The notes under the pieces: generated by a model | The model's input: the letters and a program-made list of their open reading frames with translations, nothing else | Databases searched by the model: none | Told to the model about the DNA's origin: nothing | Made by a program: the position numbers and the translations under genes | Shown: in pieces, positions 3,991 to 28,779 of the stretch | Numbering within the stretch: the stretch's first letter is position 1 | Layout: each line of letters begins with the position of its first letter | Source of the DNA: Haloarcula rubra | GTDB taxonomy: Archaea; Halobacteriota; Halobacteria; Halobacteriales; Haloarculaceae | Direction: 5' to 3' | Assembly (NCBI RefSeq): GCF_019599465.1 | Contig: NZ_RKLR01000019.1 | Span: 1 to 53,381, forward strand | Length of the DNA: 53,381 nt

Positions 3991-4031
3991 CTAACCAACA
4001 TCGGCGAAGCCATGCAGGTAGTGTTGGTTAG
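3991..4031. repeat. Dispersed inverted repeat IR1 (10-21-10)
   Basis: Left arm CTAACCAACA (3991-4000), a 21-nt spacer, and right arm TGTTGGTTAG (4022-4031): a perfect 10-bp inverted repeat. The right arm covers the stop codon of the winged-helix gene 4028-4264. Four other copies with the same 21-nt spacing exist (20143, 26838, 28673, 28739). Arm centres are 31 bp apart, about three helical turns, which suits protein dimers on one face of the DNA. It may be an operator, a centromere-like site or, less likely, an RNA hairpin. Confidence 0.85.
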
Positions 4032-4264
4032 CCGGTGCGCTGGTAGAGCTCCTGTCGAGCGTCGGACGGGTTCGGCCGGGACGTGATCAGGCCGGCCGCC
4101 TCCAGACGGTCGACAGCGTAGCGGGTGGTCCGGTCACACAGCCACGACTCGTCCCGAATCTCCTGCTGAGTCCGGGGCTCGTCCTCCTCGAGGACCTTGT
4201 ACACGAGCTTCGCGCTCGGCGGGAGGTCCTCTAACACGTCGTCGGTCATGGTAGATCCGGTCAT
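4028..4264 (-). CDS. Small winged-helix DNA-binding protein (78 aa)
   Basis: The core (LPPSAKLVYKVLEEDEPRTQ, then QEIRDESWLCDRTTRYAVDR and LEAAGLITSRPNP) is a textbook MarR/TrmB-type winged helix: helix 1, helix 2, recognition helix with TTRYAVDRL, wing. It is little more than the wHTH itself, so it probably acts as a dimer. The start at 4264 overlaps the stop of the ParB-domain gene (ATGA), so the two are translated together. Its stop lies within IR1, making it a prime candidate to bind the IR family (inference). An internal Met at 4249 is an alternative start. Confidence 0.8.
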   Translation of the reverse strand: MTGSTMTDDVLEDLPPSAKLVYKVLEEDEPRTQQEIRDESWLCDRTTRYAVDRLEAAGLITSRPNPSDARQELYQRTG

Positions 4265-4983
4265 GCTGGTTTTGGGTTCTCCTGCGAGTCGGCGCGATAC
4301 TGCTCGTCGACGTCTAGTGCATTCACTTGCGGTCCCCAGCGCTCGCGGAGTCGGCGCAGTGCAACGCGCGCCTCGTCCCGAGTGTAACTGCCGTCGAGGT
4401 GATGCTCAACGAACCGCTGGGCTGCGTCCCAGTCGTCGATGTGGATGACGTGCGCTCGGATGCGGTCGAGGCCAGCCACGTGACTGGCCCACACACGCTT
4501 GTGGCCGTTGACGATCTCGTAGCCGTTGTCGACGTCACGAACGACTGGGATGGGGCGCGGGTAGCCTCGCTGTCGAATGCCATCGACGAACGCCCGGTTG
4601 GCCTCAACGTCGAAGTTGCGCGAGTGGTACGGCGCCGCGTCGATGGCATCTAGGGCGACGGTCGTCGGGTCGACCGTGTCGACGCGCTCGAGACGGGACT
4701 GCGGGAACGCGTAGTAGGAGACGTCGTCGGCATCCAGCTGCGCGAGTTCGAGATGCTGGTAGCCGGCGTACTTTGGCCGTCGGCGTCGAAGCGTGTCGCG
4801 ATAGACGACGATCGCGACGGTCTCGTCGGCCGGGTAGTTGGGGTTGTCCCGCGCGACTGTCGTGTCGTGGCCCTGGACGTGCCAGTCTTTGCTCGCGACC
4901 GGCGGGGTGTTCACGACGACGGCTTCGTCGGGGTCGGCCTGCTCGCGGTCGATGACGACGTCGCCCGGCGAGAGACTACGCAT
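4261..4983 (-). CDS. ParB-N domain (ParB/Srx-like) protein, 240 aa
   Basis: Residues about 112-195 carry a ParB/Srx-type domain: RNFDVEANRAFVDGIRQRG, a PIPVVRD strand, the signature YEIVNGHKRVWAS (nucleotide-binding box, 155-168) and RAHVIHIDDWD. In partition ParB proteins this domain binds CTP, while in other members it is an enzyme. No central HTH follows; instead a separate winged-helix protein is encoded directly downstream with ATGA coupling, as if a ParB had been split in two. The N-terminal 100 residues are unassigned. The start at 4981-4983 follows the upstream overlap. Its role in partition or gene control is an inference. Confidence 0.78.
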   Translation of the reverse strand: MRSLSPGDVVIDREQADPDEAVVVNTPPVASKDWHVQGHDTTVARDNPNYPADETVAIVVYRDTLRRRRPKYAGYQHLELAQLDADDVSYYAFPQSRLERVDTVDPTTVALDAIDAAPYHSRNFDVEANRAFVDGIRQRGYPRPIPVVRDVDNGYEIVNGHKRVWASHVAGLDRIRAHVIHIDDWDAAQRFVEHHLDGSYTRDEARVALRRLRERWGPQVNALDVDEQYRADSQENPKPA

Positions 4984-5272
4984 TCTGCAGCACCTCCATG
5001 GCGCCGATAGCGAGCAGCGAGAGGATGAGGACCGCCCCACCGCCGATGGCGGCACCGTATCCAGCGGTGGCCGGCAGTTCGGACCAGTCGGCGTTCCGGT
5101 ACGTGTAGCGGGCTACTGTTCGGGTCTTTCCGATGAGAGTTGCGTCGTCCTCCCAGATGACTCGGCGTCGGAAGCTAGCCGCAGTGAGATAGATGCCTAG
5201 CCCAGACAGAAAGACAGCGCCAGCAACGGCGCCGCCGGCGGTCCAGACGAGGAGAGTCGTCGGGCCGATCAT
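4976..5272 (-). CDS. Membrane protein with two TM segments (98 aa)
   Basis: Two hydrophobic segments (about residues 6-30, LLVWTAGGAVAGAVFLSGLG; and 70-92, GAAIGGGAVLILSLLAIGAM) flank a charged loop rich in Arg and Tyr (RRRVIWEDDATLIGKTRTVA). Topology suggests a hairpin in the cytoplasmic membrane. It overlaps the ParB-domain gene by 8 nt and the upstream gene by 4 nt. The function is unknown. Confidence 0.72.
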   Translation of the reverse strand: MIGPTTLLVWTAGGAVAGAVFLSGLGIYLTAASFRRRVIWEDDATLIGKTRTVARYTYRNADWSELPATAGYGAAIGGGAVLILSLLAIGAMEVLQNA

Positions 5273-5535
5273 CGCTGTCCCTCCGTGCCGACGTAGGCCT
5301 CGATCTCTTCGAGTGAGATCCGACGCTTGACGCGGTGCCCGCGGTTGAAGTAGGCGTGCCCCTCGCCGAGACTGCCGAGTTTCGACCGGATGCGCTCGGG
5401 GGTTGGCTTGCGGCCGACGCGGTCTTGCTCGCGACGGATGGCCTCCTCAATCGTCAGCGTCCAGTTGCAGTGTTCGCACGACTCGCCGATGCGCTCGACG
5501 ACGCGGTCGGCATCGGTTCGTGAAGAGTCACTCAT
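5269..5535 (-). CDS. Small CxxC protein (88 aa)
   Basis: The protein contains CEHC at about 20-23, a single pair that could take part in an intermolecular or incomplete zinc site. It continues with a basic helical part (RREQDRVGRKPTPERIRSKL) and RGHRVKRRISLEEIEAYVG. The latter looks like a short HTH-like tail, so nucleic-acid binding is possible. The start overlaps the upstream stop by 8 nt. Confidence 0.7.
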   Translation of the reverse strand: MSDSSRTDADRVVERIGESCEHCNWTLTIEEAIRREQDRVGRKPTPERIRSKLGSLGEGHAYFNRGHRVKRRISLEEIEAYVGTEGQR

Positions 5536-5893
5536 CTGTGGCCTCCTTGTCGTCGATGTGGCGCGCTGCTTGCTCGATCAACTCTGTCGTCGGGTGCTCT
5601 TGGTCGTTCTCGTGGCCGATGAGTTCGCGCAGATCATCGTCGAGCGTCCGGGTGAGTCGGGTGTGGCTGTTGCGGTCTCTCCAGACAATGAGGTCGTCAG
5701 CATCCAGAGCCGCCTGGATGCTCGCGTCGACCCCGTCTCGAGAGTAGTCCCCGTAGCCGATCGGGGCGCCGACAAGGACGCCGTAGACTGTGCTGGGCCG
5801 ACAGCCGGGTAACTGCGGGTCGCCGGTGTTGTGCTCAACCACGGAGAGGACGCGCTCGTAGCGTTCCTCCGTGTCGACATCGTCCTCAGTCAT
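5528..5893 (-). CDS. Hypothetical protein (121 aa)
   Basis: The start MTEDDVDTEERYERVLSVVE at 5891-5893 overlaps the 3' end of the large winged-helix gene by 8 nt. The residues that follow (CRPSTVYGVLVGAPIGYGDY, ... ALDADDLIVWRDRNSHTRL) have the shape of a compact winged-helix fold with a short wing, but this is not certain. The C-terminus is acidic and helical. It may work with the large protein upstream, given the coupled translation. Confidence 0.7.
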   Translation of the reverse strand: MTEDDVDTEERYERVLSVVEHNTGDPQLPGCRPSTVYGVLVGAPIGYGDYSRDGVDASIQAALDADDLIVWRDRNSHTRLTRTLDDDLRELIGHENDQEHPTTELIEQAARHIDDKEATDE

Positions 5894-8483
5894 CGACCGT
5901 AGCACCTCCAGTGGCGCTAGCCTGCAGACTAGTCTGTCGGACGGTCGCCCCGACCCGGACAGTCTCGGCCTCGCTCTCGATGCTGTCGGTCAGTGCCATC
6001 GCGACGTCGACCCACGGCTGGAGCTGTGGGCAGTGTCTCCTGAGAGCGTCTAGGTCGACTGGCCACTGGAACGCAGCGCCGAGCGGTTGGTCCGGGTCGA
6101 CGAGTCGCGAGGTGTCGTCGACGAGCGCCATCGCGATGTCGAAGAGGTTGTCCTGCGGCGCCGCCGTCGTGTCGCTGACCGGCGACGGGCAGACGTCGCC
6201 TCGCTCGCTGCTGTCGATCGGCAGTGCAAGCCGAAGCCCATCGTCGGTCTGGCGGACGAGATCCAACGCTTCGAGGGCGTCGAGATGTCGGCCGACCGAC
6301 CGGGTCGAGACGTCGGCGGCGTCGGCGAGCTCGCTCTTCGAGAGTGTACCGGCCGTCCGAAGCATGACCGAGACGACTTTCGAGACGGTCGGTGGGCAGT
6401 TCGGCAGGATGCGAGCCGGGTCGAGGTTCGCGAGGGAGACGCGGACCTCGTCGAGGCCGATGTCTCGAGGACGGTCCTCGCTGTCGAGCCAGTGGACGGC
6501 GTCGCAGGTTGCATGGACGCTGTCCGTCAGGGCCCGACAGAGCGTGACTGCGTCCCGAGTCGTGTGGATGTGCTTCGGATTCAGCATGCGGTTGAGTGCA
6601 GCAGTGTAGTGTTCGCGACCGGCCGTCGCGACCGGCACGTCGACGGCGATCTCCGGTGCGTCGTCTCGCGGCGTCCGCCGGGCGAGATGGCCCTGGACGT
6701 GGTAGCCGAGACGGGTGGCTCGTCGACCGCGAATGACGAGCCCGCCGATGTAGCTCCCGAGTGGGTCGGCGGCGTCGACAGTTACCGACAGCGTCTGGCT
6801 GAGCTTCTCATCACGCGTCTCGAACAGCTTCCGGTAGAGTGCGTGTTTGCTGTAGTGCGACTGGATCGTCGCCGCGAGACTGATCGTCTCAGCGATGGCC
6901 GCGAGTCGGCGGTCGTCGATGTGTTCGGGGATGCGGAGTTCGCGAACAACGTCGACGCCGGCGACGTCCAGGAGATGCACCATCGTCCCGGCGAGGCCGT
7001 GTGCCGACCGCATGATCGTCGACCGGAGTCCGTCGCGGTCCTCGTACTGCTGGTTGGAGAGGTCCGTCGTGAGGTCCGCTAGCTCCTCGCCCCACTCGAC
7101 GAGTGCATCGCGGAACGTCTCTGGGTCGTCGGCGGCCTCGTCGGAGAGGGCACCGATGCACCGAGCACCACGCAAGAGTTCCGGCGACAGGTCGAGATCC
7201 TCGAGGCGGTCCGTGGGAAGTGTTCGGTCGATCAGTCGGGGTGACGCTAAACCAATCGCAACGCTCGTTATGTACTGCAGGGCCGACGTGGCCCGGACAG
7301 CGACGACGGCCTCGTCGGCGTCGTCTTCGTAGCTGACGTACCGGACGTGAGCCTCATCAGCCTCGTCATCGGCTGTCTGGCCGGCCGTCACGTCCTCTTC
7401 GGCCACCGTGACGCCGCCGTCAGTAGCGAGGGCGGCAGCGGCGACGTGCTGTGGCCGGGAGAGGTAGCGGGTGCGGTAGGGTCCGGCGGATGAGGGGGCA
7501 CCCCTCTTGCCCGCGTGGTTACACGGCCTGTCGTGAGACTGTCGGGCTTCGCTAAACTTCGCATCCAGTTCCTGCTGGACGCCGACTTCGAGGTCGAGAT
7601 GGTCCAGAAACGCCGATCCCGCTGGCGACAGTTCGATGCGCATATTCCCACGACTCCCAGTCTTCTGCAGCAGGTCGAGTTCCTGGAGGCGGCCGACGAG
7701 GTCGGAGATGCGTCCCACGGTCACGTCGTGTTGAGCCTGTAGTTCGTCGTAGGACAGCATCTCGGCGGGCTCTGCGGCGAGGTCGCGAAGAATCTGGACG
7801 CCACGGCCGTCGGGGTCCAGTTGCGTCGCCGCCGTCGCGACAGCCTCCTCGATGGGGGTATCCTGTGTACGCCCTGCATTCGTCCAGTCGCTAAACTCGG
7901 CGGGCAGGTCGTGGCCGTGCAGCTGGGCCAGTCGCTCGACGTCGATGGGCGACCCGACGATGAGGACTTCACACCCACTGGCCAGCTCGGCGAGCCAGCG
8001 GCAGATGTCCCGACGCTGGGCGGCGTCCTGGTCGAGGAACTCGGCCGTGATCTCCACGCCGATGGTCGGTGTCGCCTCGACCGTCGCGAACACGCGCGGG
8101 TAGCTGGTCCAGATGTCCTCGGTGTCCGACTGAATGCTTAGTTGCGTCCGTTGCCCGAGTTGTTGGGTCACGCGCAAGAACGTCGCCCGCGTGTGGTGCT
8201 GGTCGACGGCCGCCTGACCGGCGAGACTCGAGTAAATGTGGGTTGGCTGGCCGCCAGCTACACTCGTCGCGAGCGCAGTCACGTCGGCGCCGACGAGGTC
8301 GTCGGCGAGTGCTGTCGCCGTCGTCTCGACAGCGCCCTCGAGGGCGGCGAGCAGCTCGCGCTGGAAGCTGGCCTGCTTCGTCAGCGCCGCCGACAACTCG
8401 GTAAGGGGGCGTCCGTCCAGTTCGACCCGCCCAGCGGCGCCGGCGACGTCCGTCGTCCGGACTTCGATGCCGGCCTCAGACAT
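5886..8483 (-). CDS. Large winged-helix protein, possible replication initiator (865 aa)
   Basis: This is the largest gene of the non-structural block. It holds two clear HTH units: residues about 230-290 (MLSYDELQAQHDVTVGRISD, then LVGRLQELDLLQKTGSRGNM) and about 713-755 (TLSKSELADAADVSTRSVGR, then HLDALEALDLVRQTDDG). Between them is a long helical region with LGSYIGGLVIRGRRATRLGY. No polymerase, helicase or primase motif was seen. Size, position and the non-coding stretch upstream resemble the RepH-like initiators of haloarchaeal plasmids and of phiCh1-type viruses, but this comparison is from memory. A transcription regulator is the main alternative. The start MSEAGIEVRTT at 8481-8483 was chosen because upstream residues look non-native. 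Confidence 0.75.
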   Translation of the reverse strand: MSEAGIEVRTTDVAGAAGRVELDGRPLTELSAALTKQASFQRELLAALEGAVETTATALADDLVGADVTALATSVAGGQPTHIYSSLAGQAAVDQHHTRATFLRVTQQLGQRTQLSIQSDTEDIWTSYPRVFATVEATPTIGVEITAEFLDQDAAQRRDICRWLAELASGCEVLIVGSPIDVERLAQLHGHDLPAEFSDWTNAGRTQDTPIEEAVATAATQLDPDGRGVQILRDLAAEPAEMLSYDELQAQHDVTVGRISDLVGRLQELDLLQKTGSRGNMRIELSPAGSAFLDHLDLEVGVQQELDAKFSEARQSHDRPCNHAGKRGAPSSAGPYRTRYLSRPQHVAAAALATDGGVTVAEEDVTAGQTADDEADEAHVRYVSYEDDADEAVVAVRATSALQYITSVAIGLASPRLIDRTLPTDRLEDLDLSPELLRGARCIGALSDEAADDPETFRDALVEWGEELADLTTDLSNQQYEDRDGLRSTIMRSAHGLAGTMVHLLDVAGVDVVRELRIPEHIDDRRLAAIAETISLAATIQSHYSKHALYRKLFETRDEKLSQTLSVTVDAADPLGSYIGGLVIRGRRATRLGYHVQGHLARRTPRDDAPEIAVDVPVATAGREHYTAALNRMLNPKHIHTTRDAVTLCRALTDSVHATCDAVHWLDSEDRPRDIGLDEVRVSLANLDPARILPNCPPTVSKVVSVMLRTAGTLSKSELADAADVSTRSVGRHLDALEALDLVRQTDDGLRLALPIDSSERGDVCPSPVSDTTAAPQDNLFDIAMALVDDTSRLVDPDQPLGAAFQWPVDLDALRRHCPQLQPWVDVAMALTDSIESEAETVRVGATVRQTSLQASATGGATVDD

Positions 8484-8780
8484 GGCACGGCACCTCCGAC
8501 AGCCACGGCTGGGTGCTGGGCTGGCCCGCCAACGGCTCTGTAGTGTCCACGGTCGTGGGACTGGGCAGTCCAACGGCTCCTCGCCGTCCCCGAGATATGC
8601 GCTGCGCAGAGCTACCGCTCTCGGTGGGCGATAGCTTTACATGACCGGCTCCAGAACAAGGAAGTGTACCACCACTCCTCGTTCTTAACCGGGTAGCGAT
8701 GCGTGTAGATGTCGACCTATCTTGGCTGTGAAAGATGTCTTTCGCATGTACCTTAAATGATGGGGCAGCCGTCATACACT
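8484..8780. promoter_or_regulatory. Non-coding leader upstream of the large winged-helix gene
   Basis: This 297-bp stretch has no convincing gene and is less GC-rich than its surroundings. On the minus strand two AT-rich patches could be TATA elements: TTTAAG near 8751-8756 and TTAAG near 8684-8689. A weak stem (AGCTACCG ... AGCT) lies around 8610-8640. If the downstream protein initiates replication, this is the first place to look for an origin, but no iterons were found here. Confidence 0.35.
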
Positions 8781-9018
8781 TTAACCGAAGCTGACACGTT
8801 CTTTTGCTGTGTTCACGACACCGCCGTCGTTGAGTTCGACGTCGACGCGAGTCGGCGACCCCTCGAAACAACCAGACCGCCGCAATCGCCCCAGACTCCT
8901 CGCCGGCTTCGTTGCCGCCTTCGTCAAAGCGCGTCACCGTGCAGTCCATGCTGACAACGTGGCGGCCGGTGTCGACCGTCCAGCGTCCGTCGTCGATGTC
9001 GGGGTGGTCGAGCGTCAT
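8781..9018 (-). pseudogene. Small gene interrupted by a one-base frameshift
   Basis: The frame starting at 9016-9018 reads MTLDHPDIDDGRWTVDTGRH and on to SGAIAAVWLF, then turns into an arginine-rich, clearly wrong frame. Removing one base in the triplet A run at 8866-8868 (plus strand) restores a sensible acidic ending, EGSPTRVDVELNDGGVVNTA and KERVSFG, with TAA at 8781-8783. The intact product would be about 78 aa. An assembly or sequencing slip, a true mutation, or a +1 programmed shift at TTT-C are all possible. The function is unknown. Confidence 0.75.
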
Positions 9019-9167
9019 CGCACACCTCCGACTCGCCCCGGTCCGTCCCGAGCGAATCGCGTCAGACAGTTGTAGCAGGCGAACGTGTCGGCGTTGACGA
9101 TAGCGAGCCGACGGTCGCAGTTCGGGCAGTCGGGAACGGTGTCCCGGCCGGTGACGCCCGCCGCCAT
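9015..9167 (-). CDS. Zinc-ribbon micro-protein (50 aa)
   Basis: Two CxxC knuckles (CPNC at 14-17, CYNC at 31-34) form a complete small zinc ribbon on a 50-residue chain starting MAAGVTGRDTVPDC. The stop overlaps the start of the frameshifted gene (ATGA), and its own start overlaps the upstream stop by one base. Such micro-proteins are numerous in haloarchaeal virus genomes; they may bind nucleic acid or host proteins, but no specific role is known. Confidence 0.75.
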   Translation of the reverse strand: MAAGVTGRDTVPDCPNCDRRLAIVNADTFACYNCLTRFARDGPGRVGGVR

Positions 9168-9559
9168 CACTGACCCTCCCCGCCGATGTCGATCTGCTCG
9201 CGGTCGAACGTGTCGTCACAACCCTCGTACGAGCAGACGTAGTGGTCGCCGCGGTTCTGGACACCGCCGTGTTCGCACGGGCAGTAGGTCTCGCGGTTCT
9301 CCAGCGCGTCCTCGATGTACACCCACGCGGCCTCCGTGTACTGGAACACGTGATACGGCTCGCCAGCGTCGTCTTCGACGCGTTCGCGCGAGATGATCGA
9401 CGTATACTGCTGCAATGATCGGAACACGTCGTTACCGTGATCGGGGACGTCGAGGTCGCGCCACGTGTCGTCGGGGCTGTCAGCGAGCTCGGCCCAGAGG
9501 TCCAGATGCTTGCGCAGGATCTGGACGCCCGACCGGTCCAGTGACACTGACTCACTCAT
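9167..9559 (-). CDS. C-terminal zinc-finger protein (130 aa)
   Basis: The first 85 residues (MSESVSLDRSGVQILRKHLD ... SLQQYTSIISRERVEDD) are helical and resemble a regulatory or adaptor fold. The C-terminal part has CPCEH, then YVCSYEGCDDTFD, giving four cysteines for one zinc ion. The start at 9557-9559 overlaps the upstream gene by 8 nt. The function is unknown; a transcription or translation modulator is one option. Confidence 0.72.
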   Translation of the reverse strand: MSESVSLDRSGVQILRKHLDLWAELADSPDDTWRDLDVPDHGNDVFRSLQQYTSIISRERVEDDAGEPYHVFQYTEAAWVYIEDALENRETYCPCEHGGVQNRGDHYVCSYEGCDDTFDREQIDIGGEGQ

Positions 9560-19083: not shown

Positions 19084-19117
19084 TTTCGGTCAGTTCGTGA
19101 GCGGTGCTGGCGTCTCG

Positions 19118-19635: not shown

Positions 19636-19646
19636 AGCCACCGTCA

Positions 19647-19916
19647 TTACGCGTCCTCCGCGAATCTGACAGCAGCGTAGGGGATCGTCTCTCCAGTCTT
19701 TTCGTCGACTATTTCCCAGTGCTCAGCACTCTCGACTTGCATGATGCTCCAGCGGCCTTGCTGCTCCATCGAACGGCGACAACTCGGGCACCAGAGGTGC
19801 GAGTTGGTCCGGTCCCATGTCGTGTGTCCGTTCGGACACCGCCACCGATAGGGCTCATCTTCACGGTCTATCACCACTTCGTCGTGCGCGTCGGCTAGCG
19901 CCGACCCGTCGGCCAT
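19647..19916 (-). CDS. Zinc-ribbon protein of haloarchaeal type (89 aa)
   Basis: MADGSALADAHDEVVIDRED leads to WRCPNGHTTWDRTNSHLWCP and SCRR: CPNGH and CPSC build a zinc ribbon. C-terminal strands (WSIMQVESAEHWEIVDEKTG) finish the fold. Similar one-domain proteins occur in many haloarchaeal genomes; none has a role I know. The start at 19914-19916 follows a good BRE/TATA about 45 nt upstream. Confidence 0.75.
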   Translation of the reverse strand: MADGSALADAHDEVVIDREDEPYRWRCPNGHTTWDRTNSHLWCPSCRRSMEQQGRWSIMQVESAEHWEIVDEKTGETIPYAAVRFAEDA

Positions 19917-20142: not shown

Positions 20143-20183
20143 CTAACCAACACCGGCGGCGTGCACCCCCGAATGTTGGTTAG
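20143..20183. repeat. Dispersed inverted repeat IR2 (10-21-10)
   Basis: CTAACCAACA (20143-20152), a 21-nt spacer, TGTTGGTTAG (20174-20183); one more base pair (G...C) extends the match outward. It lies 52 bp before the start of the membrane protein gene at 20235, in a divergent region. It is the same element as IR1, IR3 and IR4. Confidence 0.85.
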
Positions 20184-20234
20184 CCCCTGCAGCATGGGGA
20201 AAGACTGTTTGTGCGAGCCTGACACGTACTTGAT

Positions 20235-20978
20235 ATGGTGGAAATCACTCTTCGGAACGTAGTTGGGTACTTATTCGGCTTAGCTGCGATCCTCGCAGGC
20301 CTCGTCTTCGCGTTCGTGAGTGTGGCATCCGGTGTGGCACTCATCATCGCTGGGGCAGTGGCGCTACCAGTCATCCGCCGCAGCCTCGACACGCGGCTAG
20401 ACGTCAGCTTCTCGGCGGCGGCCGTCGTCGGGCTGGTCGTGCTCCTGACAGTGGCGTCGATGGGGATGTTCGTCGCTGCGGCGCTAGATGGGTCTGGGCA
20501 GTCGGGCCCGACTGGGGCCGGCAGCGATGTCTCGAACGTTTCAGTGACTGCGCAAGATGCTGACCCACCAGCCACACAGAGCCTCAACGTCGTCTGGAAT
20601 GCTCGTGCCCAGTCCGCGGTGGACCCAACGCCAGACGATTCCTTGTCGTACGACGCTGAAGAGGGGCAGAAGTATCTGGTCGTCAGGATGCAGTTAACGA
20701 ACAACGCCTCGAGCTCTATCGACCTGACGCCGACACTGTTTCGCGCACTGTCTGATGGCGTTGAATACGAGTACCAGGCACTTTTCGGCAGTACGTCAGG
20801 TGATCTTCGAGGCGTGACGTTGAGAGAGGGCGCCACGTTTGATGGCTGGGTAGCCTTCTCGATCCCGGAGGATACCACCTCCGTAGAGCTGATCGTCCAT
20901 CAGGATGCGTACTACAATGAGCGGACGGCAGTACAGTTCGAAAAAGACGCGTCGATGCCGGTGAACGTCAGTGCGTAG
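20235..20978 (+). CDS. Membrane protein with DUF4352-like extracellular domain (247 aa)
   Basis: Three hydrophobic segments occupy residues 8-88 (VVGYLFGLAAILAGLVFAFV; GVALIIAGAVALPVI; AAAVVGLVVLLTVASMGMFV). A linker and a beta-sandwich-like domain follow (YLVVRMQLTNNASSSIDLTP; VTLREGATFDGWVAFSIPED; SVELIVHQDA), like the DUF4352 immunoglobulin-type domains of secreted and membrane proteins. The domain should face outside. It stands alone between IR2 and a convergent operon and looks like a host-derived accessory gene. Superinfection exclusion or envelope modification is a guess. Its stop directly abuts that of the convergent gene. Confidence 0.78.
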   Translation: MVEITLRNVVGYLFGLAAILAGLVFAFVSVASGVALIIAGAVALPVIRRSLDTRLDVSFSAAAVVGLVVLLTVASMGMFVAAALDGSGQSGPTGAGSDVSNVSVTAQDADPPATQSLNVVWNARAQSAVDPTPDDSLSYDAEEGQKYLVVRMQLTNNASSSIDLTPTLFRALSDGVEYEYQALFGSTSGDLRGVTLREGATFDGWVAFSIPEDTTSVELIVHQDAYYNERTAVQFEKDASMPVNVSA

Positions 20979-21782: not shown

Positions 21783-21820
21783 CGCGACCCCCCGTTATCG
21801 ATGTGTAGATGCTCAGACAT
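21779..21820 (-). CDS. 13-codon coupling minigene
   Basis: ATG at 21818-21820 overlaps the upstream stop region and the frame (MSEHLHIDNGGSR) ends TGA at 21779-21781, overlapping the next ATG (ATGA). It bridges a 30-bp gap, so it probably serves translation coupling if used at all. Chance is possible. Confidence 0.3.
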   Translation of the reverse strand: MSEHLHIDNGGSR

Positions 21821-23103: not shown

Positions 23104-23221
23104 GTTAGTACAATCTACCCCCAGTGACTTATAGCTTGTGCAATCTGCACAGTCTAATCTACAGTGCTGACAGACATGTCTTACAGAAAGGTCTAAGTGC
23201 GCACAGGTGGGATATATGCAC
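23104..23221. promoter_or_regulatory. Divergent promoter region with two palindromes
   Basis: Minus-strand promoter: TATAAG (23128-23133 in plus coordinates), 27 nt before the ATG at 23103, with palindrome TGTGCA-ATC-TGCACA (23137-23151) next to it. Plus-strand promoter: BRE-like CAGAAAGG and TCTAAG (23184-23197), 27 nt before the ATG at 23222, with AGACATGTCT (23172-23181) immediately upstream. Each promoter thus has its own symmetric site, a likely operator for the winged-helix protein encoded next to it. Confidence 0.6.
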
Positions 23222-23479
23222 ATGGCGTCTGCACAAGCAGATCCACCAATGGACGCCGAGGACCTCACCAAGACGGATCAGGCGATACTCGATGAGCTGA
23301 AGAAAGGGCGCGCTACGAAAGGGGCGCTCGTAGACTGGACTGGGTTCTCACGGAACAGTGTGTATAATCGACTGGACGTGCTCGAAGCGGGTGAGCACAT
23401 CAAGTGCGTGCATGAAGGTACGCGCCTGTTCGAGTTTGTCAGCGACCCGCGGGAGGGTGGTGATGACGTCGAAGACTGA
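23222..23479 (+). CDS. Winged-helix transcription regulator (85 aa)
   Basis: TKTDQAILDELKKGRATKGA followed by LVDWTGFSRNSVYNRLDVLE and AGEHIKCVHEGTRLFEFVSD are the three helices and wing of a MarR/ArsR-like winged helix. ATG at 23222 is favoured over nearby upstream starts by the leaderless promoter spacing. It is the first gene of the plus-strand operon (23.2-26.6 kb) and may govern the divergent region. It overlaps the J-domain gene by 17 nt. Confidence 0.85.
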   Translation: MASAQADPPMDAEDLTKTDQAILDELKKGRATKGALVDWTGFSRNSVYNRLDVLEAGEHIKCVHEGTRLFEFVSDPREGGDDVED

Positions 23480-24089
23480 CCGCACCGGCGGCGAGATAGA
23501 TTGGCCGGCGTGGGCATCGCGAACGCAACGGCGAGAGAGCACGCACAAGTACTCGACGACGCTGGCGAAGTCCATCACCCACATCGAGACCGAACTCGAG
23601 GACCGCCTCGGCGTCGACGACTGGCGGCTCTCGACGGCCGCACCCCACCGCAAGAACGACGGCCGCCCGTACGCGAACGCGAACCCGTCGGATCCCGGCG
23701 CCGTCGTCCGCTGGAGTATGGACGGCGAGCAGTACTGCATCGCCGTCGACGAGTACGACGACCTCCGGGACAACGTCCGGACCATCGGCCTCTACATCAA
23801 AGAGAAGCGGAAGATGTCGAACCGACCGGTCAAGACCGGCCAGGACGAGTTCGCGACGGCGCAGCTGCCCTCGGGGAACGAGGACGTCATCGTCGCCGGC
23901 GACGGGTCCGGTGTCGCGTCGACGGAGGCGCCGCACGAGGTGCTGGGTCTCGCCGAGGACGCCCCGGACGACGTGATCAAGGCGGCCGCTCGCCGGCTCG
24001 CAGCGAACGAGCATCCCGACAACGGCGGCGATCGCGAGGCGTACAAGCGCATCCAGCAGGCGAAGGAGGCGATGCTGGATGGCGACTGA
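23463..24089 (+). CDS. J-domain protein of haloarchaeal virus type (208 aa)
   Basis: The N-terminal domain (EIDWPAWASRTQRRESTHKY; DDWRLSTAAPHRKNDGRPYA; GLYIKEKRKMSNRPVKTGQD; ATAQLPSGNED) matches from memory a conserved haloarchaeal/viral family. The C-terminus is a J domain: PHEVLGLAEDAPDDVIKAAA then HPD (184-186) in NEHPDNGGDREAYKRIQQAK. J domains recruit and stimulate Hsp70/DnaK, so the virus may steer the host chaperone to replication or head assembly. The first domain's role is unknown. ATG at 23463-23465 is the natural start after the upstream overlap. Confidence 0.88.
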   Translation: MTSKTDRTGGEIDWPAWASRTQRRESTHKYSTTLAKSITHIETELEDRLGVDDWRLSTAAPHRKNDGRPYANANPSDPGAVVRWSMDGEQYCIAVDEYDDLRDNVRTIGLYIKEKRKMSNRPVKTGQDEFATAQLPSGNEDVIVAGDGSGVASTEAPHEVLGLAEDAPDDVIKAAARRLAANEHPDNGGDREAYKRIQQAKEAMLDGD

Positions 24090-24258
24090 CACCGACCGCG
24101 TCGACGCCCGTTTCGATCACCAGCACACTCGGGATCTCGGCTGGTACCTGTTCACGCTGTTGCCGTCGGGGCTGGACGACTGCGTCGCCGACCACATGGT
24201 TGCCGAGGGCGTCTACGGCCGACCGCGCTACGTCGGAGGGCCACTCGATGCCGAGTGA
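24079..24258 (+). CDS. Hypothetical small protein (59 aa)
   Basis: The frame MATDTDRVDARFDHQHTRDL, GWYLFTLLPSGLDDCVADHM, VAEGVYGRPRYVGG begins with an 11-nt overlap with the J-domain gene (ATGGCGACTGA) and ends with an 11-nt overlap with the next gene. Composition and coupling suggest a genuine gene of unknown function. Confidence 0.7.
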   Translation: MATDTDRVDARFDHQHTRDLGWYLFTLLPSGLDDCVADHMVAEGVYGRPRYVGGPLDAE

Positions 24259-24490
24259 GTGCGAGCAGTGCGGCGTCACCTCGCGCGGCGCCGTCGTCCG
24301 GGAGTTCGGCGACGAGATGCTGTGTGTCGACTGCGCGGCGCCTGGCGAGTGCAAGCGCTGTGGTGCGAAGACGTCGGAGTTGACGCTCGCCGGCGACTGG
24401 CTGTGCGGCCGGTGTCAGGACCAGCGGCAGGACCAACAGAAATGTCGTGAGGCCAGCCAGCACGGCCTCGGGAGGTTCGCCGATGGCTGA
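24248..24490 (+). CDS. Double zinc-ribbon protein (80 aa)
   Basis: Four CxxC knuckles (CEQC, CVDC, CKRC, CGRC) in 60 residues indicate two zinc ribbons; the start MPSECEQCGVTSRGAVVREF is placed in the ATGCCGAGTGA overlap also seen on the minus strand at 12490, 12927 and 13270. The C-terminus is a short basic/Gln-rich tail. Nucleic-acid or polymerase binding is a reasonable guess only. Confidence 0.75.
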   Translation: MPSECEQCGVTSRGAVVREFGDEMLCVDCAAPGECKRCGAKTSELTLAGDWLCGRCQDQRQDQQKCREASQHGLGRFADG

Positions 24491-24662
24491 CCAGGTCGAA
24501 CCAGAGGTGTACGAACTCTGGAACGACGACGAGAGCAAGTTCATCTGTCCGTTCTGCGACGGGCGCGTCCTGCGAATCGCCAACCACGGCGAGTGTCTCG
24601 GCGACTGCACGGCCGTGTTCAAGCGACCCGACGAGGATTCGCTTTGGAGGGCGAAACGATGA
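24483..24662 (+). CDS. Zinc-finger micro-protein (59 aa)
   Basis: MADQVEPEVYELWNDDESKF precedes ICPFCDGRVLRIANHGECLG and DC; CPFC plus C-x3-C provides a zinc site. The start at 24483-24485 overlaps the upstream stop by 8 nt. The role is unknown. Confidence 0.7.
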   Translation: MADQVEPEVYELWNDDESKFICPFCDGRVLRIANHGECLGDCTAVFKRPDEDSLWRAKR

Positions 24663-24850
24663 GCGACCTCGAGGACTACGTCGACGTCCGCGAGCTGCAT
24701 CCGGCCTGTGTCCTGCTGCCGTGCCGGTACGAATCGTGCGACAACGAACGCTGGGTCTGTGGGCCTGGCTCGGACCGCGAGTACACGGTCTGTCCTGACT
24801 GTGGCCCAGACGTCGAAGGCTTACGCAACACAACACGGGTGCGAGTTTGA
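24659..24850 (+). CDS. Zinc-finger protein (63 aa)
   Basis: MSDLEDYVDVRELHPACVLL is followed by PCRYESCDNERWVCGPGSDR and EYTVCPDCGP; six cysteines suggest one or two metal sites. The final residues (LRNTTRVRV) are basic. It overlaps its neighbours by 1-4 nt. Confidence 0.7.
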   Translation: MSDLEDYVDVRELHPACVLLPCRYESCDNERWVCGPGSDREYTVCPDCGPDVEGLRNTTRVRV

Positions 24851-25089
24851 TGACACTCGACGAGCTGCGCGTGAAGTTCAAGAACGGAGAGCCAGTCGAC
24901 ATCAAAGCCGGTCGGGGCTATTTCGGAGACCCGGTCGCAAAAGCATCGATGCGGTCGATGGATGACGGCAAGGCGCTGGTCATGTTCGACAAGCTCGGCA
25001 GCAGAGACTTCGAGAAGATGCTGCTGGAGTTGCCGTTCGTCGACGAAGTGATCCGGCCAGACAACTCCGACGCTGACGGTGATGCATAG
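24850..25089 (+). CDS. Hypothetical protein (79 aa)
   Basis: MTLDELRVKFKNGEPVDIKA GR, then GYFGDPVAKASMRSMDDGKA: a small alpha/beta protein with an acidic end (DNSDADGDA). ATG at 24850 is coupled to the upstream stop (TGATG). No family was recognised. Confidence 0.7.
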   Translation: MTLDELRVKFKNGEPVDIKAGRGYFGDPVAKASMRSMDDGKALVMFDKLGSRDFEKMLLELPFVDEVIRPDNSDADGDA

Positions 25090-25350
25090 ATGACCACTAG
25101 CGAACGCCGCGATTCGACCGAGGATCCAAAAGCTTGCTCTCGATGTGGTGTCCACACCGGCCTCGGGAACGGTGACTATTGCGACCCGTGCGCCCGCGAA
25201 TACGGCTCGAAACCGCCGATGCGACGCTGCATAGGCTGTGGTCGCGACGGCCCGCAAGAGGACATGGAGACAGTGGATGTCTCTGCTCCTGACGATTACT
25301 ACCCCGACATCCAGTATCTCTGTCGGGACTGCTCGGGAGGTAACGACTAG
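25090..25350 (+). CDS. Double zinc-ribbon protein (86 aa)
   Basis: CSRCG, CDPC, CIGCG and CRDC knuckles at about 16, 31, 47 and 78 make two separate ribbons joined by a basic stretch (AREYGSKPPMRR) . It starts right after the previous stop. This is part of the run of zinc genes 24248-26622 in the plus-strand operon. Confidence 0.72.
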   Translation: MTTSERRDSTEDPKACSRCGVHTGLGNGDYCDPCAREYGSKPPMRRCIGCGRDGPQEDMETVDVSAPDDYYPDIQYLCRDCSGGND

Positions 25351-25587
25351 ATGACTCAGACTGCAAACGGACTCTACGACAAGTACGAGGTGTACAGGGA
25401 CGGCGAACCGGTCGAGGAGTGCTTCGTCCTCGAGCCTGCCGACGACCCGGCCGCTCGTGAGGCGCTGCTGTCGTACGCCAGTGCGACCGACGACGACGCA
25501 CTGAGCGACGAGCTCCGGAAGTGGGCGTACGACCACATTCTCGACGACGGCGAGCTGCCACAGAGTGGTGAGTCTGATGACGAGTGA
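25351..25587 (+). CDS. Small conserved virus-type protein (78 aa)
   Basis: The pattern YDKYEVYRDGEPVEECFVLE, PADDPAAREALLSYASATDD resembles a short protein of many phages and archaeal viruses that reads 'K-(Y/F)-x-V ... FVL ... D-D-P-A-R-x-A-L-x-A-Y-A' (recognition from memory). Its function is unknown. The C-terminal GESDDE overlaps the next start by 11 nt. Confidence 0.72.
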   Translation: MTQTANGLYDKYEVYRDGEPVEECFVLEPADDPAAREALLSYASATDDDALSDELRKWAYDHILDDGELPQSGESDDE

Positions 25588-26122
25588 GTCCAGTCCGTCG
25601 GACCTGCTCGACCGCGTCGACGAGTCGACGGCACTCCGCGTCTACGACAGCCAGTACGAGGGCTGCTGGGACGTCAACGCTGACGAGGACCCGCGGCCGT
25701 GTCTGTCCTACTACGTCCAGACAGATTTCGGCCTCGCCTGCATCCGCTCGGCGTACGCAGACGGGTTCGGCAACGAGGCCCACCGGCTCTGCATCCCGAA
25801 CCTCGGGTACATCCCCGAACGAACTCGTGAGAGCGTCGACCGGAAGAGCGCCAAGAAGACGTTCGACCTCGTCGACGCCGACGTCTTGCCCTCGCAGCGA
25901 GACCCGCACGGCGAAGATCCCGTCACCGGCCACGAGCTGCAGATCACGGGGTTCGGGTTCGACATCAAGCCGTGGGCCAAGCGCGAGTGCGCGAAGTGCG
26001 GGCTCGCCGTCGACGCGACGAAGGCTGACCAGTCACCAGACGGGTGGATCCACCAGGACTGCAACCCGTCGAACTGGGATGATGCATCGCTCGAGGCGTT
26101 CGTCGGTGGTGAGACCGCATGA
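25577..26122 (+). CDS. Hypothetical zinc-containing protein (181 aa)
   Basis: MTSESSPSDLLDRVDESTAL starts an acidic alpha/beta chain; CECAKCGLAV-type residues (ECAKCG, about 141-146) and HQDCNPSNW near the C-terminus form a probable zinc site. ATG at 25577-25579 lies in an ATGACGAGTGA overlap with the upstream gene. The function is unknown. Confidence 0.7.
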   Translation: MTSESSPSDLLDRVDESTALRVYDSQYEGCWDVNADEDPRPCLSYYVQTDFGLACIRSAYADGFGNEAHRLCIPNLGYIPERTRESVDRKSAKKTFDLVDADVLPSQRDPHGEDPVTGHELQITGFGFDIKPWAKRECAKCGLAVDATKADQSPDGWIHQDCNPSNWDDASLEAFVGGETA

Positions 26123-26268
26123 ACGTCGCCGACGCCGATGAGTATTGGATGTGCGATGGTTGCTTCGAGCAGTTCGATACTGCCCTCTACGAAGAGGGTG
26201 ACTGCCCGCGGCCCTACTGCGACAACTCGGACAACTCCACGCTCGCCGATTTCGGAGCTGATGCGTAG
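26119..26268 (+). CDS. Zinc-finger micro-protein (49 aa)
   Basis: MNVADADEYWMCDGCFEQFD, TALYEEGDCPRPYCDNSDNS: CDGC plus C-x4-C make a small zinc finger, like a rubredoxin-type knuckle. It overlaps the upstream stop by 4 nt and abuts the next start. The function is unknown. Confidence 0.7.
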   Translation: MNVADADEYWMCDGCFEQFDTALYEEGDCPRPYCDNSDNSTLADFGADA

Positions 26269-26622
26269 ATGTCCGGCCTTGATCTCGAGGGCGGCTGTCC
26301 CGGCGACGGCCCGGATGAGTGTGTCGTCTGCGGCGGCGATGCAAGTGACACGCTGGGCCGCCACTGCTCGTGCGAATGCGCGATGAAGACTGCAGGCATC
26401 CCAAAGCGTATCGGTTGGCGGTGCGACCTTTGTGGATACTCGTCTACTGGTGCGGAAGCCGCTGACGACGTCGCCCAGCATCTTATCGACCAGCACAGCG
26501 ATGACCATAGAGTCTGCTCGGAAATCATCGGAGGCACTGGTCTCGCATCGGCCCATATGATCTGCTCGCGACTGACTGTCTCTCGCGAACAGGCCACGCT
26601 CCAGAGTACTGCCGATGATTAG
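26269..26622 (+). CDS. C2H2-type zinc-finger protein (117 aa)
   Basis: CVVCGGDASDTLGRHCSCEC in the N-terminal third and a C2H2 finger WRCDLCGYSSTGAEAADDVA, QHLIDQH in the middle, both likely to bind zinc. A C2H2 finger in an archaeal virus protein suggests DNA binding. It is the last gene of the operon from 23222. Confidence 0.72.
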   Translation: MSGLDLEGGCPGDGPDECVVCGGDASDTLGRHCSCECAMKTAGIPKRIGWRCDLCGYSSTGAEAADDVAQHLIDQHSDDHRVCSEIIGGTGLASAHMICSRLTVSREQATLQSTADD

Positions 26623-26630
26623 TCAGCCAG

Positions 26631-26640
26631 AAGATATTTA
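26631..26640 (+). promoter_or_regulatory. TATA element ahead of a 41-codon gene
   Basis: AAGATATTTA centres about 28 nt before the ATG at 26665, the spacing of an archaeal leaderless promoter; AT-rich context stands out from the surrounding GC-rich DNA. Confidence 0.45.
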
Positions 26641-26664
26641 GAGCTTCTGATAGTAGGGATACAT

Positions 26665-26790
26665 ATGGTGTGTGAGAGTACTGGGGGACCATTTGGTGAT
26701 AACCTCATGTTTGAGATTGGGCAATGGTTGCTTTGCGAATCGCCCGAGTGGATAGCTGATGTACTTGCCATGTCAGCTGTGATTTTCTAA
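26665..26790 (+). CDS. Possible small gene (41 aa)
   Basis: ATG at 26665-26667 opens MVCESTGGPFGDNLMFEIGQ, WLLCESPEWIADVLAMSAVI, F and TAA. The only support is the well-placed TATA element and the lack of any other gene in this 388-bp stretch. GC content is lower than in neighbours, so it could be recently acquired, or just non-coding. Confidence 0.4.
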   Translation: MVCESTGGPFGDNLMFEIGQWLLCESPEWIADVLAMSAVIF

Positions 26791-26837
26791 GAGAATAGCC
26801 GCATCCTCTTGATGGCAACTTTCCTCGCCGACAACGT

Positions 26838-26878
26838 CTAACCAACACACCCTGCCTTTCTGCCCCGGTGTTGGTTAG
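26838..26878. repeat. Dispersed inverted repeat IR3 (10-21-10) in the par region
   Basis: CTAACCAACA (26838-26847), 21 nt, TGTTGGTTAG (26869-26878); an eleventh pair (C...G, inside) also matches. It begins with GTCTAACC, the same core as the iterons that start 12 bp downstream. This makes IR3 the link between the dispersed repeats and the ParA promoter. Confidence 0.88.
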
Positions 26879-26889
26879 CAACTGTAGTT

Positions 26890-26949
26890 AGTCTAACTCA
26901 GCATCCTAACCTGCAAGTCTAACCTGCAAGTCTAACCGACCAGTCTAAC
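26890..26949 (+). repeat. Five 13-bp iterons upstream of parA
   Basis: AGTCTAAC occurs at 26890, 26916, 26929 and 26942, with a variant ATCCTAAC at 26903: five copies with an exact 13-bp period. A sixth, inverted copy (GTTAGACT, 26991-26998) lies between the TATA box and the ATG. The last direct copy is embedded in the palindrome CCAGT-CTA-ACTGG. Arrays like this in front of parA genes act as operator and centromere for the DNA-binding partner of ParA. A replication-iteron role is the alternative. Confidence 0.85.
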
Positions 26950-26980
26950 TGGTTGGTGTGTCACGTACGTCTGACGAGTG

Positions 26981-26986
26981 TTTATG
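26981..26986 (+). promoter_or_regulatory. TATA element of the par operon
   Basis: TTTATG lies 27 nt before the ATG at 27011 and immediately downstream of the iteron array; the inverted iteron half-site (26991-26998) sits at the expected initiation region. Binding there should block transcription, giving autoregulation (inference). Confidence 0.6.
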
Positions 26987-27010
26987 ACGGGTTAGACTCA
27001 CCAGTGAGAC

Positions 27011-27838
27011 ATGCTCGCATACACGGTCTACTCCGAGGCCGGCGGCGTCGGCAAGACGACGCTCGCCGCGTCGCTCGCGACGGCGCACGCCGACCACGGT
27101 CGCGACGTCCTCACCATCGACCTTGACCCACAGCAGGGCTCGTTGACGTACCTGCTGGGCGTCGATGCTCCTCGCAACGACGGCGATGCTGACAACATCG
27201 GCCGGCACCTCATCGACCGGCCGCTCGGCGAGTTCGACGAGCTCGTCCACGACACGGGCTACGGCTTCGACCTCATACCCAACCACGACATGCTGGAAAA
27301 CCTGCCTAGCCTGCTCTCTCGAGCGGAGGAGATGGCCGAGGACCTCGGCGAGTACTTCTCGCCGAACGAACGCCTCCTGGAGGTCCTCATCGACGCCGAC
27401 GTGATGACTGACTACGACACGCTGATCGTCGACCCGCCGGCGACCGCGGGCCCGCACCTCTACAACGCGATCCACGCGACGCGGTCGCTAGTCGTGCCGG
27501 TCGAGCCGACGGGCAAGGGGATGCAGTCCGTCGAGGGCCTCGAGGACGTCGTCCTCAACCTGAGCGACTCGCTCGATATCGACGTCGGCGTGCTGGCGGT
27601 GATCCCGAACGGCATCGGCTCGACGAGCGACCAGCAGAAGTACCTCGAGCGCATCCGCGACCTCGGGTTCGACGCGCCAGTCGCCATCGCTGACCGGTCG
27701 TCACTCTTCGAGGGGTGCTGGGACCAGCAGTACCCGCCGGCGTACTACACGCAGGAGGTCCGGGCGGCGTACGACTATGAGGAGGCGACGCTCGCCGAGC
27801 TGGATGAGCTCGCGACGCACATCGAGGAGGTGGCGTAG
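27011..27838 (+). CDS. parA: ParA-family partition ATPase (275 aa)
   Basis: Walker A is SEAGGVGKTT (residues 8-17); A' is IDLDPQQGS (36-44); Walker B is YDTLIVDPP (135-143). These motifs and the length define a ParA/MinD-type ATPase that segregates plasmids by binding nucleoid DNA. The usual signature lysine in KGGxGKT is Ala10 here, a change I believe is common in haloarchaeal ParA relatives. Start ATG at 27011 is leaderless, with iterons upstream. The next gene starts directly after the stop. A par system suggests low-copy episomal maintenance of a prophage state. Confidence 0.92.
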   Translation: MLAYTVYSEAGGVGKTTLAASLATAHADHGRDVLTIDLDPQQGSLTYLLGVDAPRNDGDADNIGRHLIDRPLGEFDELVHDTGYGFDLIPNHDMLENLPSLLSRAEEMAEDLGEYFSPNERLLEVLIDADVMTDYDTLIVDPPATAGPHLYNAIHATRSLVVPVEPTGKGMQSVEGLEDVVLNLSDSLDIDVGVLAVIPNGIGSTSDQQKYLERIRDLGFDAPVAIADRSSLFEGCWDQQYPPAYYTQEVRAAYDYEEATLAELDELATHIEEVA

Positions 27839-28249
27839 ATGGGCAACGGCATGAAGTCGGGCTCCGGCGAGGATCCGTTCGCCGACGTCGACGCCGGTGA
27901 CGGCGATGGCGAATCCGAAGACGAGGCCGACACAGTGAACGAGGCCCAACACGACGAGACCAGCGTCGACGACGGCGACGAGAACAGCGGAAACAGTGGT
28001 GTGTCCTCGTCGGGCTATCCGTGGCTGTTCACCCGCAACAACGCCAAGGACGGCCGCGAGATGGTCCAGTTCTTCCTCCAGCAAGACACTCAGCAGCTAG
28101 AGAGTCAGGCACAGGCCGACCTCGAGTCGCTGGTCGGCGAGGAACCACTCGTCCTGGACATCCGCGAGGCCGCCTACCAGGTCGCGCTTGATCAGCACCT
28201 TGACGACGTCGCCGACCAGCTACGCGAGTGGGGCTACGACGCCGAGTGA
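27839..28249 (+). CDS. ParA partner protein, probable centromere-binding adaptor (136 aa)
   Basis: It starts immediately after parA. The first about 58 residues are very acidic and disordered (GDGDGESEDEADTVNEAQHD); the folded part (YPWLFTRNNAKDGREMVQFF, LVLDIREAAYQVALDQHLDD, VADQLREWGYD) resembles a family found directly after parA on haloarchaeal replicons (from memory). It probably binds the iterons and activates ParA, but the fold is not a recognised RHH or HTH. Confidence 0.75.
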   Translation: MGNGMKSGSGEDPFADVDAGDGDGESEDEADTVNEAQHDETSVDDGDENSGNSGVSSSGYPWLFTRNNAKDGREMVQFFLQQDTQQLESQAQADLESLVGEEPLVLDIREAAYQVALDQHLDDVADQLREWGYDAE

Positions 28250-28253
28250 TCGA

Positions 28254-28418
28254 TTATTCTACTCGGCCCGGAAAACAGTCTTCGCAGGGCTCGTAGTCGG
28301 ACTGTGCAAGCTCGTCTTCGTCCAAATACTCGTTTGGAGACTTGTGGCCAACCATCTGGAGAATGGAACAGTCGCCATCAGGGTCGTGGTACAAATCGCG
28401 CGAGAGGGTAACTTTCAT
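28254..28418 (-). CDS. Small zinc-knuckle protein (54 aa)
   Basis: ATG at 28416-28418 opens MKVTLSRDLYHDPDGDCSIL, QMVGHKSPNEYLDEDELAQS, DYEPCEDCFPGRVE; TAA at 28254-28256. CEDC plus an upstream C/H may hold zinc. A TATA box TTTAAA lies 27 nt upstream on the minus strand, so the transcript is likely leaderless. It converges with the par operon at a 4-bp distance. Confidence 0.75.
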   Translation of the reverse strand: MKVTLSRDLYHDPDGDCSILQMVGHKSPNEYLDEDELAQSDYEPCEDCFPGRVE

Positions 28419-28442
28419 GCTCAGAATGCGGCAGCGATTTCA

Positions 28443-28449
28443 TTTAAAT
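28443..28449 (-). promoter_or_regulatory. TATA element of the 54-aa gene
   Basis: TTTAAAT within an AT-rich island, about 27 nt ahead of the ATG at 28418 on the minus strand, is a close match to the haloarchaeal TATA consensus. Confidence 0.6.
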
Positions 28450-28672
28450 TTGGGGGAGCGTTCCAACTCTGTATAGCGCTATACGCTATATCGAACCCGA
28501 CGCCCCGGCGTTTCGAGTGTTTCTCTGACGGCGCAACCCCACACTTCGAGTGCGAAAACCACCATACAGCGACGGGATACAGCGGAAACGTGGTGTCAGT
28601 TACACAAATACTGATTGTTATCTGGGGGGATGGGGGCAGTGAGACAGCGCTGCCGCTGGTCGTCGACGAGTC
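28450..28672. other. Non-coding region between par and IR5
   Basis: No reliable gene was found. It contains the perfect palindrome GTATAGCGCTATAC (28471-28484) followed by CGCTATAT, and TTCGAGTG twice (around 28515 and 28546). A plus-strand open frame crosses it, but without a credible start. AT-rich, palindromic sequence between converging units could be a replication origin or a regulatory node. Confidence 0.45.
28471..28484. repeat. 14-bp perfect palindrome
   Basis: GTATAGCGCTATAC reads the same on both strands and is followed by a further GCTATA, so overlapping half-sites are present. It lies upstream of the promoter of the 54-aa minus-strand gene (28 bp further out) and could be its operator. 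Confidence 0.65.
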
Positions 28673-28713
28673 TTAACCAACGCACGACCGCCAGTAGTCT
28701 CGATGTAGGTTAA
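28673..28713. repeat. Dispersed inverted repeat IR5, degenerate copy
   Basis: TTAACCAACG (28673-28682), 21 nt, TGTAGGTTAA (28704-28713). Two positions in the left arm and two in the right arm differ from the consensus, yet the 21-nt spacing is kept; the outer change (C to T, G to A) is compensated, so symmetry at the ends is preserved. It lies 25 bp from IR4. Confidence 0.75.
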
Positions 28714-28738
28714 GAAACAGCGGAACTACTGGGGTCCG

Positions 28739-28779
28739 CTAACCAACACGGCCGCCGTACCGGCGCCGATGTTGGTTAG
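28739..28779. repeat. Dispersed inverted repeat IR4 (10-21-10)
   Basis: CTAACCAACA (28739-28748), 21 nt, TGTTGGTTAG (28770-28779), with an additional outer G...C pair. It lies 9 bp beyond the end of the last tail-module gene (28789). IR4 and IR5 form a tandem pair in the space between converging transcription units. Confidence 0.86.

Follow-up and report, generated by a model that had tools for sequence, protein, structure and literature searches.

The inverted repeat that recurs in the haloarchaeal DNA analysed here is a real, selected and widespread element and a putative protein-binding site, whose assignment to an unstudied family of small DUF6788-like proteins is well supported by sequence comparison. 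The family gains a concrete predicted DNA target as well as a testable function, and an explanation is offered for a repeat that many haloarchaeal plasmids carry, pNRC200 of the Halobacterium laboratory strain NRC-1 among them. The best explanation overall, which we consider reasonably probable, is that a DUF6788-like protein binds the repeat, represses its own gene and uses the dispersed copies as promoter-distal anchors.

Sites in the window and their conservation

The window, i.e. the whole stretch of 53,381 nucleotides under analysis, corresponds to one entire contig (C10) of the Haloarcula rubra genome. Its first 127 bases are identical to its last 127; the molecule is therefore circular and complete, with a length of 53,254 bp. 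The nearest named complete relative is the 41.9-kb circular plasmid of Haloarcula sp. CBA1115 (designated L151), which possesses portal and tail genes and encodes a ParA protein 88% identical to that of the window. A closer sister is represented by the 50.7-kb contig C8 of Haloarcula pellucida. All three molecules are phage-plasmids.

A pattern search detected exactly four perfect copies of CTAACCAACA-N21-TGTTGGTTAG in the window. The chance expectation for such copies is 0.00, and not a single shuffle yielded even one. All four perfect copies and the degenerate fifth copy listed in the initial annotation were recovered. Perfect site 1 (positions 3991–4031, no strand assigned) is located at the 3' end of a winged-helix gene (4028–4249, minus strand), whose stop codon is overlapped by one of its arms, and its position is kept in L151 with N22 and in the H. 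pellucida sister with N21. Perfect site 2 (20143–20183) resides in the divergent gap between genes 19647–19916 (minus strand) and 20235–20978 (plus strand) and is conserved in H. pellucida, with N22 there. Perfect site 3 (26838–26878) is positioned 133 bp upstream of the adjoining parA-type ATPase gene (27011–27838, plus strand), which is regarded as context and not as the predicted binder; its counterpart in L151 keeps the same 133 bp to parA and identical arms, with a diverged spacer that is 1 bp longer. The gene for a small acidic ParA partner (27839–28249, plus strand) likewise provides context, and its product is a rival candidate binder (see below). Downstream of the parA operon follows the degenerate site TTAACCAACG-N21-TGTAGGTTAA (28673–28713), which matches 16 of 18 core positions and has a degenerate counterpart in L151 as well, with N22. 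Perfect site 4 (28739–28779) is found 25 bp from the degenerate site, and the matching area in H. pellucida contains two perfect copies. The proposal that all copies lie between genes holds for the five sites apart from the overlap of site 1 with the stop codon, and the structural half of the window is free of sites, as had been claimed.

To assess conservation, the four perfect sites were compared with those of the H. pellucida sister. None of 72 arm positions had changed as compared to 18 of 85 spacer positions (p = 1.3e-5), which points to purifying selection on the arms of the window sites, and one of the four sites had shifted between N21 and N22. Unchanged arms, diverged spacers, the 21/22 shift and the constant distance of 133 bp to parA argue that selection acts on both arms and on their helical phase, but not on the letters or the exact length of the spacer. 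The A+T content is highest at the centre of the spacer, and this peak might fit DNA bending at that place.

Spacings were also determined in a genus-wide scan that allowed N8 to N38. Among the 75 copies listed, spacers of 11 (3 copies), 19 (1), 20 (7), 21 (37), 22 (23) and 23 (4) nucleotides were found. All five sites have N21 in the window and all five have N22 in L151, whereas the H. pellucida sister mixes both lengths. The invariance of the 21-nt spacer put forward by the initial annotation is therefore a property of the window, and what is selected in general is the helical phase (about 21–22 bp, or 11 bp, that is one turn less) and not an exact length. The search of related viruses for the pattern that had been suggested there retrieved the repeat from 17 virus contigs. 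A replicon-specific spacing code is not supported, as other viruses mix 21 and 22 and homogeneity within replicons reached p = 0.09.

The host genome contains 34 copies of the repeat core. Within the host's family, 76 of 146 genomes have the repeat, for the most part on plasmids and viruses. A species-wide collection contains it in at least 114 stretches, and those of them that are complete records are largely plasmids. Where genomes are complete, secondary replicons carry the bulk of the copies. A virus-specific element is ruled out by this pan-haloarchaeal occurrence, and a MITE or insertion element is rejected because the arms are fixed while the spacers are unrelated. Two bacterial matches (L123 and L129), each of them single and located inside a coding sequence or in a long terminator-like hairpin, were taken as chance, and the intergenic repeats of Halovirus HF2 are promoters of different sequence. 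A literature search for the repeat sequence retrieved no relevant paper among those it listed.

The candidate binding protein

Clustering of the gene neighbours of about 170 sites revealed a 107-aa unannotated protein whose start repeatedly faces the site. When haloarchaeal genes of this family were located by the protein alone, the repeat ended 14–17 bp before the ATG in all 30 cases, each time with N21, 29 of these copies being perfect and one carrying a single mismatch. The family gene is found in 69 of 76 site-bearing genomes vs 14 of 70 site-free genomes (Fisher p = 3e-19, Spearman 0.78, n = 146 genomes); some of the seven site-bearing genomes without a detected family member are incomplete. 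Among the haloarchaeal site-bearing genomes that were reached through the repeat, 43 of 46 possess the family gene, in a set that overlaps with the 146 genomes.

The association extends to bacteria. A scan with the bare pattern matched four bacterial contigs, among them one from the Omnitrophota and one from the Synergistaceae. In both of these genomes, a small gene encoding the same C-terminal motif has a promoter that contains the repeat twice in tandem. Subsequent protein searches in Omnitrophota and Synergistota yielded loci with promoter inverted repeats in 31 of 32 cases (76 repeats observed vs 2.6 expected), mostly arranged as pairs at about -110 and -55. The bacterial arms co-vary symmetrically between species, as exemplified by GTTAACCAACA, GTTACCAAACA, GTTACCTAACA, GTTACCATACA and GTTACCCAACA. 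Profile comparison shows that the archaeal proteins are homologous to the bacterial ones (hhalign probability 96% over 36 columns), and a profile of c1b, a second and divergent haloarchaeal subfamily, finds bacterial members at 2e-5. Nearly the same operator is seen in haloarchaea, Omnitrophota and Synergistota.

Genes of the c1b subfamily have, in three species, C..G-ended repeats like those of the window in their own promoters. Their spacings are N22, N22 and N19 as compared to N21 in the window, a difference that counts against the assignment of the window sites. A third paralogue on host contig C36 is accompanied by its own variant of the repeat, GTTACCCCACA-N20-TGTGGGGTAAC. This co-variation of operator and protein is the main argument for assigning the site to the family, and the binder of the repeat is thus predicted, with high probability, to be a small DUF6788-like protein. 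Each 41-bp element would provide two half-sites for one such protein, and a dimer or higher oligomer would hold both of them on one face of the DNA, their centres being about three turns apart. At its own promoter, the protein would act as an autorepressor. The predicted target DNAs of the c1b and c1a proteins are CTAACCAACA-N21-TGTTGGTTAG and TTAACCAACA-N21-TGTTGGTTAA. Examples of c1a genes are those at 141211–141534 and 160229–160552 of pNRC200 in Halobacterium NRC-1, and the c1b genes include one of H. sebkhae (L317).

Members of the family comprise about 90–150 aa, with N-terminal helices followed by a three-stranded sheet that displays the motif KxIxxxxYYYxxWREGxKVxSxY. In an AlphaFold model, two helices at the N-terminus are accompanied by an antiparallel sheet of three strands (mean pLDDT 79, pTM 0.43), and a search of PDB structures with this predicted fold gave no significant match. 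The family shares the core YYYxxxREGxKVxSxY with DUF6788 (Pfam PF20586). One divergent haloarchaeal member of the neighbour cluster scores above the Pfam cut-off (39.4 vs 27.2 bits), while typical members from haloarchaea, Omnitrophota and Synergistota stay below detection by this model. None of the papers covered by a literature search mentions DUF6788. In bacteria, a gene for an NTP_transf_8 nucleotidyltransferase follows the family gene in most loci (26 members in the cluster); in haloarchaea, a winged-helix gene and a DUF6036 nucleotidyltransferase gene often diverge from the same site as the family gene.

Placement and possible roles of the dispersed copies

The placement of the copies was analysed in replicons read at length (79 copies, 78% of the DNA being coding). 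None of the 79 copies resides in coding DNA, and there is no orientation bias. On pNRC200, dispersed copies are situated at about 73103, 91000, 267324, 287175, 308493, 323165 and 330573. Of the copies away from a family gene, 3% are located within 40 bp of a start as compared to 17% of random intergenic points; 12 are in divergent gaps vs 17.8 expected, and 14 in convergent gaps vs 10.8 expected. Since coding sequence and core promoters are avoided, the dispersed copies are probably not ordinary operators, and the avoidance of start-proximal DNA likewise makes simple operator-type silencing unlikely. Enrichment near orc1/cdc6 or near family genes beyond the operator copy had looked strong in a site-centred set of loci, but was not significant in unbiased plasmids. 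Because the copies avoid starts, lack a preference for divergent gaps and show no clear association with parA or orc genes, we tentatively assume that they serve maintenance or silencing as architectural elements remote from promoters. The dispersed copies would represent anchors at which a c1-type protein encoded by a co-resident plasmid would load onto the replicon, comparable to the promoter-distal KorB sites of plasmid RK2.

One alternative is that the dispersed copies are ordinary operators after all, through which a DUF6788-like regulator would govern numerous promoters of plasmids and viruses. The copy beside the family gene does sit at its promoter in all 30 haloarchaeal cases, and the bacterial repeat overlaps a -10-like sequence. 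However, the depletion of non-adjacent copies in the 40 bp before starts, the lack of an excess in divergent gaps and the use of convergent ones render this explanation unlikely.

The sites could also constitute the phage-plasmid's own centromere, bound by the ParA partner (27839–28249) or by the ParB_N-domain protein (4261–4983), both of which the initial annotation had named as candidate binders. The 133-bp arrangement of site 3 and parA in the window and L151 would agree with such a function, as would a pNRC200 site 62 bp upstream of one parA gene and the precedent of dispersed inverted repeats in N15. Dispersed sites within 2 kb of parA are weakly enriched (12 vs 7.3 for random intergenic points, p = 0.04), but at 0.3 or 1 kb the enrichment did not reach significance. 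Moreover, L151 lacks a counterpart of the ParB_N gene and yet carries five sites, for which reason the ParB_N protein was rejected as binder. The ParA partner shows no connection with the bacterial copies and is a poor candidate, the same kind of repeat being present at DUF6788-like promoters in bacteria without such a ParA pair. The parA promoter, in addition, has its own distinct 13-bp iterons of the tCTAACC type (26883–26951, plus strand, between site 3 and parA), a separate element that probably provides the control or centromere repeats of the parA operon itself. A centromere bound by a protein of the replicon itself is improbable for the 41-bp sites, which may or may not take part in partition by other means. 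The third binder suggested previously, the winged-helix protein (4028–4264), fares no better: it is common to several site-bearing viruses, and beyond these nothing connects it with the repeat.

A decoy or immunity function appears similarly improbable. Here, the copies would titrate an autorepressing antitoxin-like regulator and thereby tune a linked nucleotidyltransferase module, or they would cause an incoming replicon to be tolerated or silenced by resident plasmids. The nucleotidyltransferase genes next to the bacterial family genes or diverging from the haloarchaeal site fit this idea, as does the absence of a family gene from the window. Yet, a few additional sites would have little titrating effect in a polyploid cell, the toxin activity of the module is putative, and many dispersed sites are far from such modules. 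Finally, an RNA-level element, i.e. a transcription terminator or processed stem-loop, is highly improbable: the arms could form a 10-bp stem and certain copies adjoin the 3' ends of genes, but the copies at family promoters are upstream of the start codon, the sequence of the 21-nt loop is free, the N11 class and the spacings of 19–23 indicate DNA helical phase, and many copies occupy divergent gaps.

Probable action in trans and comparison with known systems

Returning to a DUF6788-like binder, we note that its gene is absent from the window. Profile searches of the window, L151 and the H. pellucida element found no family member, and a hidden family gene in the window or L151 was rejected on this basis. 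Among the contigs of the host, C8 and C37 harbour c1a genes, and the c1b genes are on C34 (18566–18937) and C7; the repeat was not found in the promoters of these two c1b genes. H. pellucida carries seven perfect copies on its phage-plasmid and a single, divergent c1b-like gene, whose promoter is without the repeat. Both observations weaken the case for action in trans. The initial annotation had proposed a binding site for a viral protein. Comparison strongly supports the reading as a binding site, but the attribute 'viral' does not hold, as the family is absent from the window and its two closest relatives and is encoded elsewhere in the host. Because all three phage-plasmids lack the gene, the family would be linked to their copies by action in trans. 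A window devoid of the gene in a host with several suggests that proteins from other, co-resident plasmids probably act on it. In their arm ends, the C..G-ended sites of the window are like the c1b operators, and the host c1b genes on C34 and C7 may supply the protein.

In extension, it is conceivable, if rather speculative, that the repeat is part of a cross-replicon address system, in which the protein of one replicon marks others for co-maintenance or silencing. The small DUF6788-like proteins encoded by haloarchaeal plasmids would recognise two or more kinds of operator (T..A- and C..G-ended), and matching promoter-distal copies would be kept by unrelated plasmids and phage-plasmids without the gene. 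The DNA code would be common to bacterial toxin-antitoxin-like operons, having been conserved across the divide between archaea and bacteria or moved by gene transfer. If the dispersed copies do act, the protein of one plasmid would be working via fixed sites on co-resident plasmids and viruses, an arrangement that is rarely seen.

Several known systems share features with this arrangement. In plasmid RK2, KorB binds palindromic OB operators across the plasmid, some at promoters and others promoter-distal; KorB is an autoregulated ParB-family CTPase encoded by RK2 itself. Dispersed palindromic sites of both kinds and a single autoregulated protein, predicted in our case, are common to both, whereas here the family is small, unrelated and encoded on other replicons, and the role in maintenance is putative. 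N15-type phage-plasmids have dispersed centromere inverted repeats that are bound by a phage-encoded SopB homologue. The window resembles them in the few inverted repeats scattered over the non-structural half, but differs in that the element has no cognate gene and that the repeat is common to many unrelated plasmids. The stoperators of mycobacteriophage L5 are likewise dispersed intergenic repressor-type sites outside promoters; they are asymmetric and oriented with transcription, in contrast to the palindromic arms without orientation bias found here, and the repressor is not phage-encoded in our case. The promoters of AbiEi-type antitoxin genes provide a further parallel: AbiEi operators consist of 23-bp repeats 3 bp apart, the distance being 13 bp for Rv2827c, whose promoter contains two pairs of inverted elements (PMC7319586). 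A small antitoxin-like gene, a nucleotidyltransferase partner and repeated inverted promoter elements are shared with these systems, but the protein family is a different one and the arms are 10–11 bp long and about 21 bp apart. As the partners are NTP_transf_8 or DUF6036 proteins and not DUF1814/AbiEii, the likeness to AbiE is one of layout only.

The outer arm type (T..A vs C..G) is homogeneous within replicons (p = 2e-4), to which lineage may contribute. In the host, C..G-type sites predominate on contigs C2, C10 (the window), C13 and C34, and T..A-type sites on C36 and C37.

Topology of the replicon and DNA flanking parA

The window carries an exact direct terminal repeat of 127 bp (1-127 and 53255-53381). 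This assembly overlap shows that the contig is the whole of a circular replicon, 53,254 bp in length. Upstream of parA lie 13-bp iterons of the tCTAACC type (26883-26951), which are also kept in the related Haloarcula phage-plasmid L151 and may serve the parA operon as its control elements or its centromere. Similar GTCTAAC repeats precede parA in Salinibaculum sp. KK48 (L152; 81% identity for parA). On the 3' side of the operon, the window and L151 share a conserved non-coding stretch (about 28440-28720; e.g. TGTATAGCGCTATACGCTATAT at about 28470), which is possibly origin or centromere DNA.

Spacing and copy-number variants of the repeat

A version of the repeat that is one turn shorter, with an 11-bp spacer (N11), occurs at G007:C59:2217, G009:C10:84350 and G013:C1:93151. 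Its spacer is conserved across these three genomes (TTAACCAACAGAAGCGATGAGTGTTGGTTAA), the G009 copy differing by one base. In the H. pellucida sister contig, two N22 sites are arranged in tandem with a 55-bp offset (L314; G640:C8:38932-38971 and 38987-39026), whereas only one site occupies this place in the window.

Promoters of DUF6788-like genes

In Omnitrophota (L226-L255) and Synergistota (L224, L225), genes for DUF6788-like proteins form two-gene operons with NTP_transf_8 nucleotidyltransferase genes, putatively constituting an undescribed toxin-antitoxin-like module. Inverted repeats in the promoters of these operons are often paired, about 55-62 bp apart. Halobacterium NRC-1 possesses a third family gene on pNRC200 (294043-294366; locus L257), whose promoter repeat retains the right half alone.
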